This document shows positions 37,243 to 44,212 of a stretch of 64,000 bases of DNA, one piece after another. Numbering within the stretch: the first letter of the stretch is position 1; each line of letters opens with the position of its first letter. The notes below the pieces were generated by a model. The model had not been told where the DNA came from, made no database searches, and saw only the letters and a program-made list of their open reading frames with translations. Source of the DNA: Miltoncostaea oceani (GTDB lineage Bacteria > Actinomycetota > Thermoleophilia > Miltoncostaeales > Miltoncostaeaceae). The DNA is taken from the NCBI RefSeq assembly GCF_018141545.1, contig NZ_CP064356.1:1550001-1614000 (forward strand). Direction: 5' to 3'. The position numbers and the translations under genes are program-made.

Positions 37243-37428
37243 ATGGCGGTGGACCACGACGCGCGGCGGCGCCGGATCGGCTGGGCCCTGGTGGTGCTCG
37301 CCCTGCTGCTCTTCGTGGTGCAGATGACGGCGCTGGCCCTCGGCTCGCTCGAGGTCGCCGGCCTCATCTTCCTCGTCTACGTCGCCGGGTGGTTCGCCCT
37401 GCGCTCGTACCAGCGCCGCCACACCTGA
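37243..37428 (+). CDS. Small two-helix membrane protein, 61 residues
   Basis: Two membrane segments (about 13-33 and 36-53) with a positively charged N-terminus and tail. ATG with leaderless promoter. No family recognised. Ends 7 bases from the convergent O-methyltransferase stop. Confidence 0.65.
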   Translation: MAVDHDARRRRIGWALVVLALLLFVVQMTALALGSLEVAGLIFLVYVAGWFALRSYQRRHT

Positions 37429-40718: not shown

Positions 40719-41075
40719 ATGCCCGAGGGGATCCCCCGATACGACGGTCAGGCCGAACGCCTCGCGCGACTGCGCGAGGAGGTCGAGTCGGCCCTGCAGC
40801 AGCGGGACCTCGCGACCGATGAGGAGCGCGGCGACGGCCACCACCACCCGGCGGAGGCCGCGACCGACGCGGAGCTGCGCGAGCGGGAGCTCCGGGCCCA
40901 GCTGCGCTGGCGCGAGCGCGAGGCGCGCCTGCGCGCGGCGCTCGACGCGATCGACGCGGGGACCTACGGGATCTGCGTGGACTGCGGCGCCGAGATCCCC
41001 GAGGGGCGGCTGAGGGCGCTGCCCGACTCGGTGCGCTGCGTCCCCTGCCAGCGGGTCGCGTCCCGCAGGGCGTAG
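40719..41075 (+). CDS. TraR/DksA family zinc-finger protein
   Basis: Protein of 118 residues: an N-terminal coiled coil (about 8-80) followed by a four-Cys zinc finger CVDCGAEIPEGRL...CVPCQ. Such proteins enter the RNA polymerase secondary channel and, in many bacteria, act with ppGpp. Its last 112 bases overlap, on the other strand, the end of the heme A synthase gene. Confidence 0.9.
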   Translation: MPEGIPRYDGQAERLARLREEVESALQQRDLATDEERGDGHHHPAEAATDAELRERELRAQLRWREREARLRAALDAIDAGTYGICVDCGAEIPEGRLRALPDSVRCVPCQRVASRRA

Positions 41076-41971
41076 TCCCCGGTCGCGCGCACCGGCCGCG
41101 CGACGCCCCGGCAGGCCGCGACGATCACCGCCCACACGAGGGCGGCGATGCTCACGTGCACGACGACCACCTGCCACGGCAGGCCGTTGCGGTACTGGTA
41201 CTCGCCGACGGCGATCTGCAGGGCGACGAGGGGGAGGGCGAGCGCGGCGAGGCGGGCGGTGAGCCGGTCGACCCCGCCCTCGCGGGCGACCCAGGCGATC
41301 AGCACCGCCGCCAGGACGGTGAAGACGATCGCCGCCCGGACGTGCACCTGCAGGGCGAGCAGCAGGTCGCCGAAGCGCTTGGTGACGTCGTCGTCGCCGC
41401 TGTGCGGCCCGGCGGCGGTCACGATCACCCCCGTCACGACCACCACCGCCGCGCTGAGGGTCGTGAGCACGGCCAGCACCCCCCGCCGGGGGCTCCACTC
41501 CCGGGTGACGCCGTCGCGGTGGTCGCGGGCGCCGAGGGCGAGGAGCGTGCCGCAGCCGAGGGCCGCGATCGACACGAGGAAGTGGGAGCCGACGGCGAGG
41601 GGGTGCAGGCCCGAGAGCACGGTCACCGCCCCGAGGGGCATCTGCACCACGCAGGCGGCGGCGGCGCCGAGCGCCCACCGGTGCAGCGCGGCCGGGGCGC
41701 CGGGCAGCCGCCGGGCGACGAGCCACGTCCCGATGGCGACGAGGCCGACGACGCCCGAGAGCAGGCGGTTGGTGTACTCGATGGCCGCGTGACCGGCGGC
41801 GGCCGGCACGACGCCGCCGTCGCAGAGCGGCCAGTCGGGGCAGCCCAGCCCCGACGCCGTCAGGCGCACGATCGCCCCGCTCGGCACGACCACCCAGAGC
41901 AGGGCCATGGTGACGAGGGCGAGGCGGGCGAAGGCGGAGGGGGTCCGCAGGCGTCGCAGCAGGTCGCGCAT
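40964..41971 (-). CDS. ctaA: Heme A synthase
   Basis: Eight-helix membrane enzyme that oxidises heme O to heme A for cytochrome oxidase, 335 residues. It has the disulfide pair Cys in LGCPDWPLCDGG and heme-ligand His residues in ALHRWAL, LQVHVRAAIVF and VVVHVSIAALVW, plus EYTNRLLSG. ATG 41971 chosen: TACGAT is 7 bases upstream. The tail after the last helix (about 45 residues) is unconserved-looking and is read antisense to the TraR/DksA gene. Confidence 0.88.
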   Translation of the reverse strand: MRDLLRRLRTPSAFARLALVTMALLWVVVPSGAIVRLTASGLGCPDWPLCDGGVVPAAAGHAAIEYTNRLLSGVVGLVAIGTWLVARRLPGAPAALHRWALGAAAACVVQMPLGAVTVLSGLHPLAVGSHFLVSIAALGCGTLLALGARDHRDGVTREWSPRRGVLAVLTTLSAAVVVVTGVIVTAAGPHSGDDDVTKRFGDLLLALQVHVRAAIVFTVLAAVLIAWVAREGGVDRLTARLAALALPLVALQIAVGEYQYRNGLPWQVVVVHVSIAALVWAVIVAACRGVARPVRATGDYALRDATRWQGTQRTESGSALSRPSGISAPQSTQIP

Positions 41972-41978
41972 CGGGACC

Positions 41979-41984
41979 ATCGTA
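41979..41984 (-). promoter_or_regulatory. -10 box, leaderless ctaA
   Basis: TACGAT, 7 bases before ATG 41971; overlaps an alternative ATG at 41980. Confidence 0.5.
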
Positions 41985-42024: not shown

Positions 42025-42567
42025 ATGGCCGAGCCCGACGACCCCATCGTGCCGCCGCCGCCCGCCCCCGGGCACCGGCGCGCGGGCACGATCGCCGGCC
42101 TCGTGCTCATCGCGGTGGCGGTGGCGGTGGCGGTGGCGTTCGGCCTCGGGCGCGCCGACGACCCGGGGCGGATCGTGACGGAGGTCGTCGGGGTGCACGA
42201 CGCCGGCACCCGCGGCGACACCCCCCTGCCGGAGCTCGGCGACACCGGGTTCGCCGGCTTCGCGGCCCGCGACGGGTGGACGCCCGTCGGGGCGCGCACC
42301 GACGACCTCGAGGGGCGCCGCGCCGTGACGGTGTTCTGGGAGCGCGCCGGCCGGCGGATCGCCCACACCACCGTGTCGGGCGACCCGGTGGACGCCCCGT
42401 CGGGGGCGCGCCGGACGGGGCGGCGCGGGATCCTCCTGCGCAGCTTCGAGGCCGACGGGCGGGTGGCCGTCACCTGGACCGAGGGGGGCCGCACGGCGGT
42501 GATCTCGTCGGTCGGCGTGTCGCGGGCCGCGCTCTACAACCTCGCCGGCGGCAGACCCCTCCGTTAG
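42025..42567 (+). CDS. Uncharacterised membrane-anchored protein
   Basis: Protein of 180 residues: Pro-rich cytoplasmic start, one membrane helix (about 21-42, including the repeated VAVAVAVAV) and a soluble outer domain rich in strands (TVFWERAGRRIAHTTVSG). Recognised family none. Starts ATG 42025 with no clear ribosome site. A hairpin directly follows the stop. Divergent from ctaA. Confidence 0.65.
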   Translation: MAEPDDPIVPPPPAPGHRRAGTIAGLVLIAVAVAVAVAFGLGRADDPGRIVTEVVGVHDAGTRGDTPLPELGDTGFAGFAARDGWTPVGARTDDLEGRRAVTVFWERAGRRIAHTTVSGDPVDAPSGARRTGRRGILLRSFEADGRVAVTWTEGGRTAVISSVGVSRAALYNLAGGRPLR

Positions 42568-42584: not shown

Positions 42585-42630
42585 CGAACCCCCTGCCCGG
42601 GGGGTAAGGCGCGGGCCCGTGCGTGCCGAC

Positions 42631-42644
42631 GTGACGTATGTCAC
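42631..42644. promoter_or_regulatory. CRP/FNR-like palindrome
   Basis: GTGAC-GTAT-GTCAC, which reads GTGA-N6-TCAC, the core of CRP-family operators. It lies 25 bases before the 28-residue membrane peptide and upstream of copCD. No CRP-like gene is in the window. Confidence 0.45.
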
Positions 42645-42668
42645 CACCGCCACGTACCGGAGCCCCCG

Positions 42669-42755
42669 ATGGTCGTCCGCCAGTTCCGCCTCGCCGCGAG
42701 CAGCTTCGTCCTCACCTCCTTCGCGATCGTGGCGTTGCACGTCCTCCTGAAGTAG
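42669..42755 (+). CDS. 28-residue single-helix membrane peptide
   Basis: Short frame with ATG and a textbook ribosome site (GGAG, 6 bases). Positively charged start (MVVRQFR) then a hydrophobic helix of about 18 residues and a Lys end. Such peptides often stabilise respiratory complexes; copCD and ctaA are close by, but a role is only inferred. Confidence 0.5.
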   Translation: MVVRQFRLAASSFVLTSFAIVALHVLLK

Positions 42756-42789
42756 GTCCCGGCCCGCGGCCGCGACGGCCGGGTGGTGG

Positions 42790-42795
42790 TACCGT
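42790..42795 (+). promoter_or_regulatory. -10 box, leaderless copCD fusion
   Basis: TACCGT, 7 bases before the GTG. Confidence 0.55.
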
Positions 42796-42802
42796 CGCCG
42801 CC

Positions 42803-44212
42803 GTGCGCGCACCGTCGTGGCTCGTCGGCCTCCTCATCGCGGCCGCCGCCCTCCTGACCCCCACGGCGGCCCTGGCGCACGCCACCGCGCGCGTGTCCGA
42901 GCCCCCCGCCGGGGCGACCGTCGCGACCGCGCCGGACGAGGTGCGCCTGGTGCTGTCCGCACCGGTCGAGGACGAGTTCCTGACCCTGCGGGTCACGACC
43001 CCGGCGGGGGACGAGGTCTCGGGCGGGTCCCGCCGCGACCCGTTCGACCCCCGGGCGATCCTCGCCCCGGTCGCGGTGCCCGCGGGGACGGACGGCCTGG
43101 TCGTGACGTGGCGGGTCCTGTCGCGGGACGGGCACGCCACCGGGGGCGTCTACGGCATCGGCATCGGCGCGCCCGCACCGGACACCGGCGCGGTCGCCTC
43201 GCCGGTGCGCTCCGACCTCGTGCCGTTCGGGGTGCTCGCGCGCCTGCTGATGCTCGTCGCGCCCCTCGGGCTCCTCGGGTTGATCGCCCTCGCGGCGGGG
43301 GTCGTCGGGCCGGCGGTGGTCGCGGGCGGCATCGGCCCCCCGGGGGAGTCGCCGTCGGTGCGGGCCTCGGTGCGCGCGCGCGCCGCGGAGGCGGTCCTCG
43401 GGGCCACGCACGGCTGGTGGCGCGCCTGGTACGCGCTGACCGCGGCGTGGGCCCTCGCGCTGGTGCTCGTGCCGGTCGCCGCCCTCTGGGCCCTGCGGGA
43501 GGGGCCGGGCGGCCTCGGCGACCTGCTCGGCGGGACGTCCCTCGGCGACGCGTGGCGCCTGCAGCTCGCGGGGCTCGTCGTCACGGCGGTGGCGGTGCTC
43601 GTCGCCCGCCGCGCGACGGGGCCGGGCGGCCTGCCCGACGCGCCGCTCGCGGCCGTCGGCCTGGCGTTCGGGCCGGTCGCCGCGCTGTACGCGATCAGCG
43701 CCTCGGGGCACGCCTCCACGGGCGGTGACCGCACCCTCAACATCGGCATCGACCTGCTGCACAACGTCGCGACCGCCGCGTGGATCGGGGGCCTGCTGGG
43801 GCTCGCCGTGCTGGTCTCGCCCGCGGTCGCCGCCCTCGGGGCCGACGACCGCACCCGCCTCGCCGCGGCCGTCGTGGTCCGCTTCTCCGCCCTCGCCCTG
43901 ACCGCCGTCGCGGTGCTGGTGGTGACGGGGGTCTACCGCGCGCTGGCGGAGGTGTCGCCGGACGACCTGCTCGACACGGGCTACGGCCGCGCGCTGCTCG
44001 TGAAGCTCGGCCTCTTCGCCGTGCTGCTCGTCGGCGGGGCGTACAACCGGATGGTCGTGCACCCGCGCCTCGAGCGCGCCGCCCTCGGCCTCGACCCGGA
44101 CGACCGCGGGGGCGCCGCCGCGCTGCGCGTCAGCGTGCGCGCCGAGCTCGTCGCCGCCGGGGTCCTGCTGGTGGCGGTCGCGGTGCTGATCAGCCTCGCC
44201 CCACCGGGGTGA
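42803..44212 (+). CDS. CopC-CopD fusion, copper import/resistance protein
   Basis: Membrane protein of 469 residues. Signal peptide (ends ALAHA), so the first residue of the mature chain is His, the amino-terminal copper ligand of CopC. CopC beta-barrel (about 28-120; SEPPAGATVATAPDEVRL, ...SRDGHATGG) is fused to an eight-helix CopD domain (about 135-465, including HNVATAAWIGGL and the His in SGHAS). YcnJ-like: takes copper into or across the membrane, consistent with cytochrome oxidase needs. GTG start, leaderless. Confidence 0.9.
   Translation: MRAPSWLVGLLIAAAALLTPTAALAHATARVSEPPAGATVATAPDEVRLVLSAPVEDEFLTLRVTTPAGDEVSGGSRRDPFDPRAILAPVAVPAGTDGLVVTWRVLSRDGHATGGVYGIGIGAPAPDTGAVASPVRSDLVPFGVLARLLMLVAPLGLLGLIALAAGVVGPAVVAGGIGPPGESPSVRASVRARAAEAVLGATHGWWRAWYALTAAWALALVLVPVAALWALREGPGGLGDLLGGTSLGDAWRLQLAGLVVTAVAVLVARRATGPGGLPDAPLAAVGLAFGPVAALYAISASGHASTGGDRTLNIGIDLLHNVATAAWIGGLLGLAVLVSPAVAALGADDRTRLAAAVVVRFSALALTAVAVLVVTGVYRALAEVSPDDLLDTGYGRALLVKLGLFAVLLVGGAYNRMVVHPRLERAALGLDPDDRGGAAALRVSVRAELVAAGVLLVAVAVLISLAPPG

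Follow-up and report, generated by a model that had tools for sequence, protein, structure and literature searches.

A conserved 28-residue membrane peptide encoded before a CopC-CopD fusion gene in Miltoncostaeaceae

Known copper systems and the layout of the locus

CydX and KdpF are one-helix accessory subunits of membrane complexes, each about 30 residues long and encoded beside a large partner. Among copper systems, the CopC-CopD fusion YcnJ of Bacillus subtilis is reported to be a copper importer that supports cytochrome aa3 in copper starvation (PMC13344008). The small upstream ORFs CutF (PMC9973294, PMC8456105) and CruR (PMC9426467) are described as able to regulate copper genes, and CutF is exported. 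By the criteria of PMC9973294, a CutF-like protein has fewer than 150 residues, a same-strand gene within 1,000 nt downstream, a PP motif in its last 15 residues, and a Cys and/or His metal-binding motif.

We analysed a window of 64,000 nucleotides from Miltoncostaea oceani (genome of 4.54 Mb in three contigs), in which a 28-codon ORF precedes copCD, the gene of a CopC-CopD fusion (Table 1). The copCD product matches the Pfam families CopC (2.5e-13) and CopD (5.3e-22), and its signal peptide, ending in ALA, is followed by the N-terminal His of mature CopC (HATAR). It is like YcnJ in joining CopC and CopD in one protein and in its tie to haem-copper oxidase function, but the Pfam scan finds only these two domains, without a YtkA domain, and the accessible part of the YcnJ report mentions no such peptide (PMC13344008). 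By analogy, because YcnJ supports cytochrome aa3, a copper-for-oxidase reading of the locus appears reasonable. The preliminary description had proposed a cytochrome-oxidase or copper assembly unit under CRP/FNR control; its copper and haem-A setting is borne out, with ctaA called in 16/19 family loci, and its CRP/FNR control is not supported, the palindrome discussed in the last section being chance-level and unconserved. Two more CopC-CopD paralogues of this genome (G000) occur without the peptide (G000:C1:470700-472091 and 3132512-3133900).

Like CutF and CruR, the peptide is small and its gene directly precedes a copper gene, and its size and position agree with the CutF-like definition. 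In contrast to both, it is far shorter, has a conserved helix face and lacks CXXC or CXXXC and a C-terminal proline motif. Across 11 peptides of the family, we found Cys in 0/11, Pro within the last 15 residues in 0/11 (hence a PP motif in 0/11) and no metal-binding motif of the CutF-like kind; a comparison with CruR and DUF2946 revealed no CXXC, no C-terminal RAPP and no DUF2946 match. Since the 11 peptides have neither Cys nor C-terminal Pro, they carry neither a metal nor a stall motif of known kinds.

The gene upstream of the peptide encodes the c11 protein, modelled as a single N-terminal helix with an outer domain rich in beta structure (mean pLDDT 89.6). Its best structural matches, both weak, are Dip2269 (7.7e-3) and RseB (1.5e-2), and it is linked to the peptide by position only. 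Homologues of 180-200 aa occur in most family loci, with no Pfam family over the cut-off.

Table 1. Features around the peptide gene, in window coordinates
Feature	Positions	Strand	Remarks
ctaA, haem A synthase family	40964..41980	-	divergent neighbour; COX15-CtaA 5.4e-25
membrane-anchored protein, cluster c11	42025..42567	+	180 aa; conserved upstream of the peptide
GGGTAA	42602..42607	+	counterpart of the GTAACA element of g5/g6; putative promoter element
CGAC	42627..42630	+	counterpart of the relatives' CGAT/C element before the peptide; putative promoter -10
palindrome GTGACGTATGTCAC	42631..42644	.	chance-level, unconserved
GGAG	42659..42662	+	Shine-Dalgarno-like, 6 nt upstream of the peptide's ATG
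peptide MVVRQFRLAASSFVLTSFAIVALHVLLK	42669..42755 (stop included)	+	28 residues, single-helix membrane; ATG 42669, stop 42753-42755
TACCGT	42790..42795	+	-10-like element 7 nt before copCD start; leaderless-type
copCD, CopC-CopD fusion	42803..44212	+	starts GTG 42803

Occurrence and conservation of the peptide

We compared 42 Miltoncostaeaceae genomes from 12 genera, numbered g1 (the window's own genus) to g12. An orthologous copCD is present in 37/42 (matches down to 3.9e-43), 19 of them in g12 and 18 elsewhere; the fourth g1 genome, G021, is a draft without one. All 18 non-g12 loci were inspected, together with the g12 loci among L015-L035 and L073-L074. Equivalents of 28 or 29 residues, alignable without internal gaps, lie just upstream of copCD in 11/18 non-g12 loci, with the copCD match starting 12-163 nt downstream of the peptide. 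A fixed ORF filter (ATG start, with every ATG tried; 24-34 residues; hydropathy >1.5; GC3 >0.6; within 350 nt) yields exactly one ORF in each of the 11 positive loci and none in 20 control copCD loci, comprising 10 family paralogues and 10 from other families (11/18 versus 0/20, Fisher P 2.6e-5). The search among relatives that the preliminary description proposed has thus found the overlooked peptide it suspected.

A single-sequence search identified equivalents in two genomes of the same genus (G019, 75%; G020, 65%) and one of another (G018, 52%), all in the same place; its fifth match, in G006, lies in a different place and out of context (E 0.34). A first profile of four sequences reached g1 and g11 only, and the wider family was found by reading the gaps between ctaA and copCD. 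The family was then evaluated by leaving out a genus and searching the profile of the rest against all six-frame ORFs of 19 loci. Held-out profiles rank the peptide ORF first in g1, g5 (0.042 and 0.0099), g6 (5e-7 and 8e-7), g7 (9.5e-4) and g11 (G018, 5.5e-6, with only g11 left out). When g1 and g11 are both left out, the three g1 ORFs rank first at 15 bits (the next at 3 to 5; E 0.004-0.006), and G018 is missed among the 19 loci. The ORFs of g3 (G006) and g4 (G008) rank 3 and 32. Consequently, nine peptides from five genera are backed by held-out profiles, and those of G006 and G008, admitted solely by position and length, were excluded from the conservation test.

In the class and phylum genomes searched, the peptide is seen beside orthologous copCD alone. 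A profile of all 11 rows has 11 matches below 1e-7 among 399 genomes of the class, all beside an orthologous copCD and all contained in the profile itself; outside these, the best match is 7.3e-4. Among 396 genomes of the phylum, nothing else appears at 0.001 save one partial match (7e-4). By sequence, no match at a meaningful E-value was found in Pfam, NCBIfam or the PDB, and the literature within our reach, which leaves out most subscription journals, contains no report of such a peptide.

Several features suggest that the ORF is a translated gene. Shine-Dalgarno-like tetramers precede 9/11 peptides, against a background of 10.7% among the 831 ATGs of the window (binomial 8e-8, kinship ignored), in keeping with the ribosome site pointed out earlier for the window's ORF. 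The G018 peptide may be leaderless, because it has no Shine-Dalgarno site and TAGGGC stands seven bases before its ATG. Among the nine confident peptides, R7 and F13 are invariant and A10, T16 and H24 are each kept in 8/9; H24 is replaced by N in G009 and by Y in G008, a doubtful member. The His at position 24 is the only one in those eight members, sits at the helix end and is part of no motif. Together, R7-A10-F13-T16-L20-H24 form a conserved helix face: across positions 8-26, column entropy is most strongly periodic at 100 degrees per residue (scan 60-180), which is alpha-helical (P 0.0004 for nine), and the peak holds in all seven subsets, with leave-one-genus-out P <=0.0018 (highest without g7). 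The peptide's dN/dS of 0.43 to 0.94 over seven pairs adds weak support, with 28 codons to draw on.

We conclude that the 28-residue ORF encodes a genuine but unclassified membrane protein, of a small size class usually skipped by annotation. It represents a conserved membrane protein family added to copper handling. The rows that carry the peptide are scattered over several deep branches of the CopCD tree, requiring four changes; most simply, the peptide is old in the family, with losses. It is absent from 7/18 non-g12 copCD loci and from the inspected g12 loci, and CopCD and ctaA can therefore manage without it.

Possible partner and function of the peptide

The peptide probably works with the neighbouring copper transporter. 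The peptide is a single helix with a conserved face, always sits in front of copCD and is absent from other places; this favours a small accessory helix or subunit of the CopC-CopD protein, to which we assign a probability of about 0.5. A cis-acting upstream ORF comes second and a factor for CtaA or the oxidase third. In the genomes searched, the gene stands beside copCD and nowhere else, as an accessory subunit's gene would. Like CydX and KdpF, the peptide has about 30 residues, a single helix and a gene beside a candidate large partner; it differs from them in lacking database relatives and in having a partner proposed from context.

In the proposed mechanism, the ORF would yield an inner-membrane peptide of 28 residues and a single helix, its positively charged N-terminus inside and its C-terminus outside, as the positive-inside rule predicts. 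The face R7-A10-F13-T16-L20-H24 would dock onto a partner in the membrane, with the CopD domain as the likeliest candidate, and the helix would stabilise the CopC-CopD protein or complete its copper path. This would put H24 close to the outer side, at the point of copper transfer from CopC, in which it could take part. As with YcnJ, the role of CopCD itself, encoded beside ctaA, would be to supply haem-copper oxidase assembly with copper, by import or delivery. Should the helix be a subunit of CopCD, the way in which CopD-type proteins move copper would become easier to explain.

The start of copCD bears directly on the second reading. In 9/16 loci (G000, G020, G019, G018, G013, G008, G014, G015 and G005), TANNNT, mostly TAGCGT, stands 6-9 nt before an RTG start without a Shine-Dalgarno site. 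A TA(G/C)CGT element is conserved before copCD, mostly as TAGCGT where relatives possess it, and supports, as far as sequence can, the leaderless-type start first read from the window alone. Elsewhere, copCD overlaps the c11 stop (ATGA in G001, GTGA in G003) or the stop of an NRAMP gene (TGATG in G027). Four genomes of g5 and g6 (G009, G010, G012 and G011; L068-L071) have no in-frame ATG, GTG or TTG just upstream of the copCD signal-peptide core; relative to the start of the copCD match, the nearest usual start is absent in G009 and at +3 in G010, +18 in G012 and -138 in G011. Instead, the peptide stop lies across the copCD frame, which reads C-TAG there in G009, G010 and G012 and C-TGA in G011. 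Starting at the overlapping CTA or CTG would give ordinary signal peptides, as might other codons. Draft-genome errors are an unlikely cause in four genomes, and the arrangement suggests, at the level of the reading frames, non-AUG initiation of copCD coupled to the peptide, which the g5/g6 frames make open to a concrete test. A frameshift fusion of peptide and CopCD was rejected: no slippery site is seen in the junctions inspected and the topology would be wrong.

Because copCD in g5 and g6 lacks a usual start and overlaps the peptide stop, coupling or a copper-responsive upstream ORF is a serious rival. Translation and insertion of the peptide would then control copCD translation in cis, with little or no function in trans, a reading that we hold to be tentative. 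The short distance to copCD, the overlaps in four genomes of two genera and the precedent of CutF and CruR as upstream ORFs of copper genes speak for it. However, the peptides lack the Cys and C-terminal Pro of such regulators, copCD has its own leaderless-type start in g1, g11, g7 and g4 as well as in the peptide-free g8 and g9, and the conserved helix face suggests a function as protein.

That the peptide is a small subunit or assembly factor of CtaA or cytochrome oxidase, and not of CopCD, appears unlikely. The frequent presence of ctaA is consistent with it, and the conserved, membrane-embedded His could sit near haem or copper. However, ctaA is kept in peptide-free loci (for example G014, G015, G003, G001 and G027), the peptide is co-directional with copCD and not with ctaA, and in G018 no ctaA is called next to the peptide. 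Even less probable to us is a composite, in which a Cys-free, membrane-inserting upstream ORF senses copper or its insertion state and gates copCD by termination-reinitiation, with a non-AUG (CUA/CUG) start in g5/g6, its product also serving as a CopCD helix.

A chance ORF in GC-rich DNA is barely credible: in G000 and G018 the frame stays open for a long way upstream, as such DNA allows, but the held-out profiles, Shine-Dalgarno enrichment, helical periodicity and difference from the controls all contradict it. Descent from the last helix of an NRAMP transporter can be set aside, for although in G027 an NRAMP gene (Pfam 6.6e-118) separates copCD from the c11 gene and the g12 NRAMP gene ends exactly at the peptide's place with a superficially similar tail, profile comparison gives no alignment (probability 1%) and the NRAMP rows form one clade on the CopCD tree while the peptide is spread over the family. 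In g12 (L073 9700-11055 and other loci), the peptide's place is often taken by an NRAMP gene whose end overlaps the start of copCD.

Sequence elements upstream of the peptide

The perfect GTGA-N6-TCAC palindrome noted in the window does exist. As a CRP/FNR-type operator of a peptide-copCD unit in this species it is very unlikely. Its perfect 5-bp arms lie directly after the CGAC element, and the genome contains 77 GTGA-N6-TCAC sites, compared with 9 of the control pattern, read backward. The window, however, has one site where 0.56 are expected, a number reached by 43/100 shuffles, and scaling the shuffle mean of the window up to 4.54 Mb gives about 40 sites, leaving a modest genome-wide excess; many of the listed cores look codon-phased. 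The longer GTGAC-N4-GTCAC occurs three times in 4.54 Mb (control 0; about 4 predicted from base composition), and inverted-repeat strength at the palindrome is locally ordinary (P 0.43). The outer bases are C and C, against T and A in the CRP consensus. Within the 90 nt before the peptide start, 1/11 genomes has a perfect copy and G020 has a 7-of-8 match. We therefore rejected the palindrome as a conserved operator, and since it occurs at chance density and is unconserved even within the genus, CRP/FNR control of peptide and copCD is not supported. The regulator that the preliminary description wished to see found has candidates, four of the seven listed HTH_Crp_2 matches being over the family cut-off, and none of them is tied to the palindrome. 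Conservation, on which that description would have let both elements stand or fall, is found for the peptide and not for the palindrome.

The leaders of G011 (L071) and G012 (L070) contain long inverted repeats, which differ in sequence and lie downstream of the CGAT element, ahead of the ribosome site; 0/300 shuffles match them in each. The repeats are weak in G009, G010 and G013 and no better than chance in G000 (P 0.43), G019, G020, G006 and G008. We do not claim a conserved RNA hairpin, because the region was picked after inspection.

In g5 and g6, a GTAACA element stands 17 nt before TCGAT. The pattern GTAAC-N18-TCGAT has 23 sites in 19/42 genomes; it marks the peptide locus in G009, G010, G011 and G012 and is otherwise rare and scattered, and for this reason we rejected it as a regulon. 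In several genera (window 42602-42630; L068-L071), GGGTAA(CA) and CGA(T/C), about 17-20 nt apart, precede the peptide, an arrangement that is rare in the genomes searched and resembles an ECF-type promoter. A further small ORF of 61 aa, likely with a membrane helix, lies at 37243-37428 of the window, and a similar ORF is present at the G019 locus.
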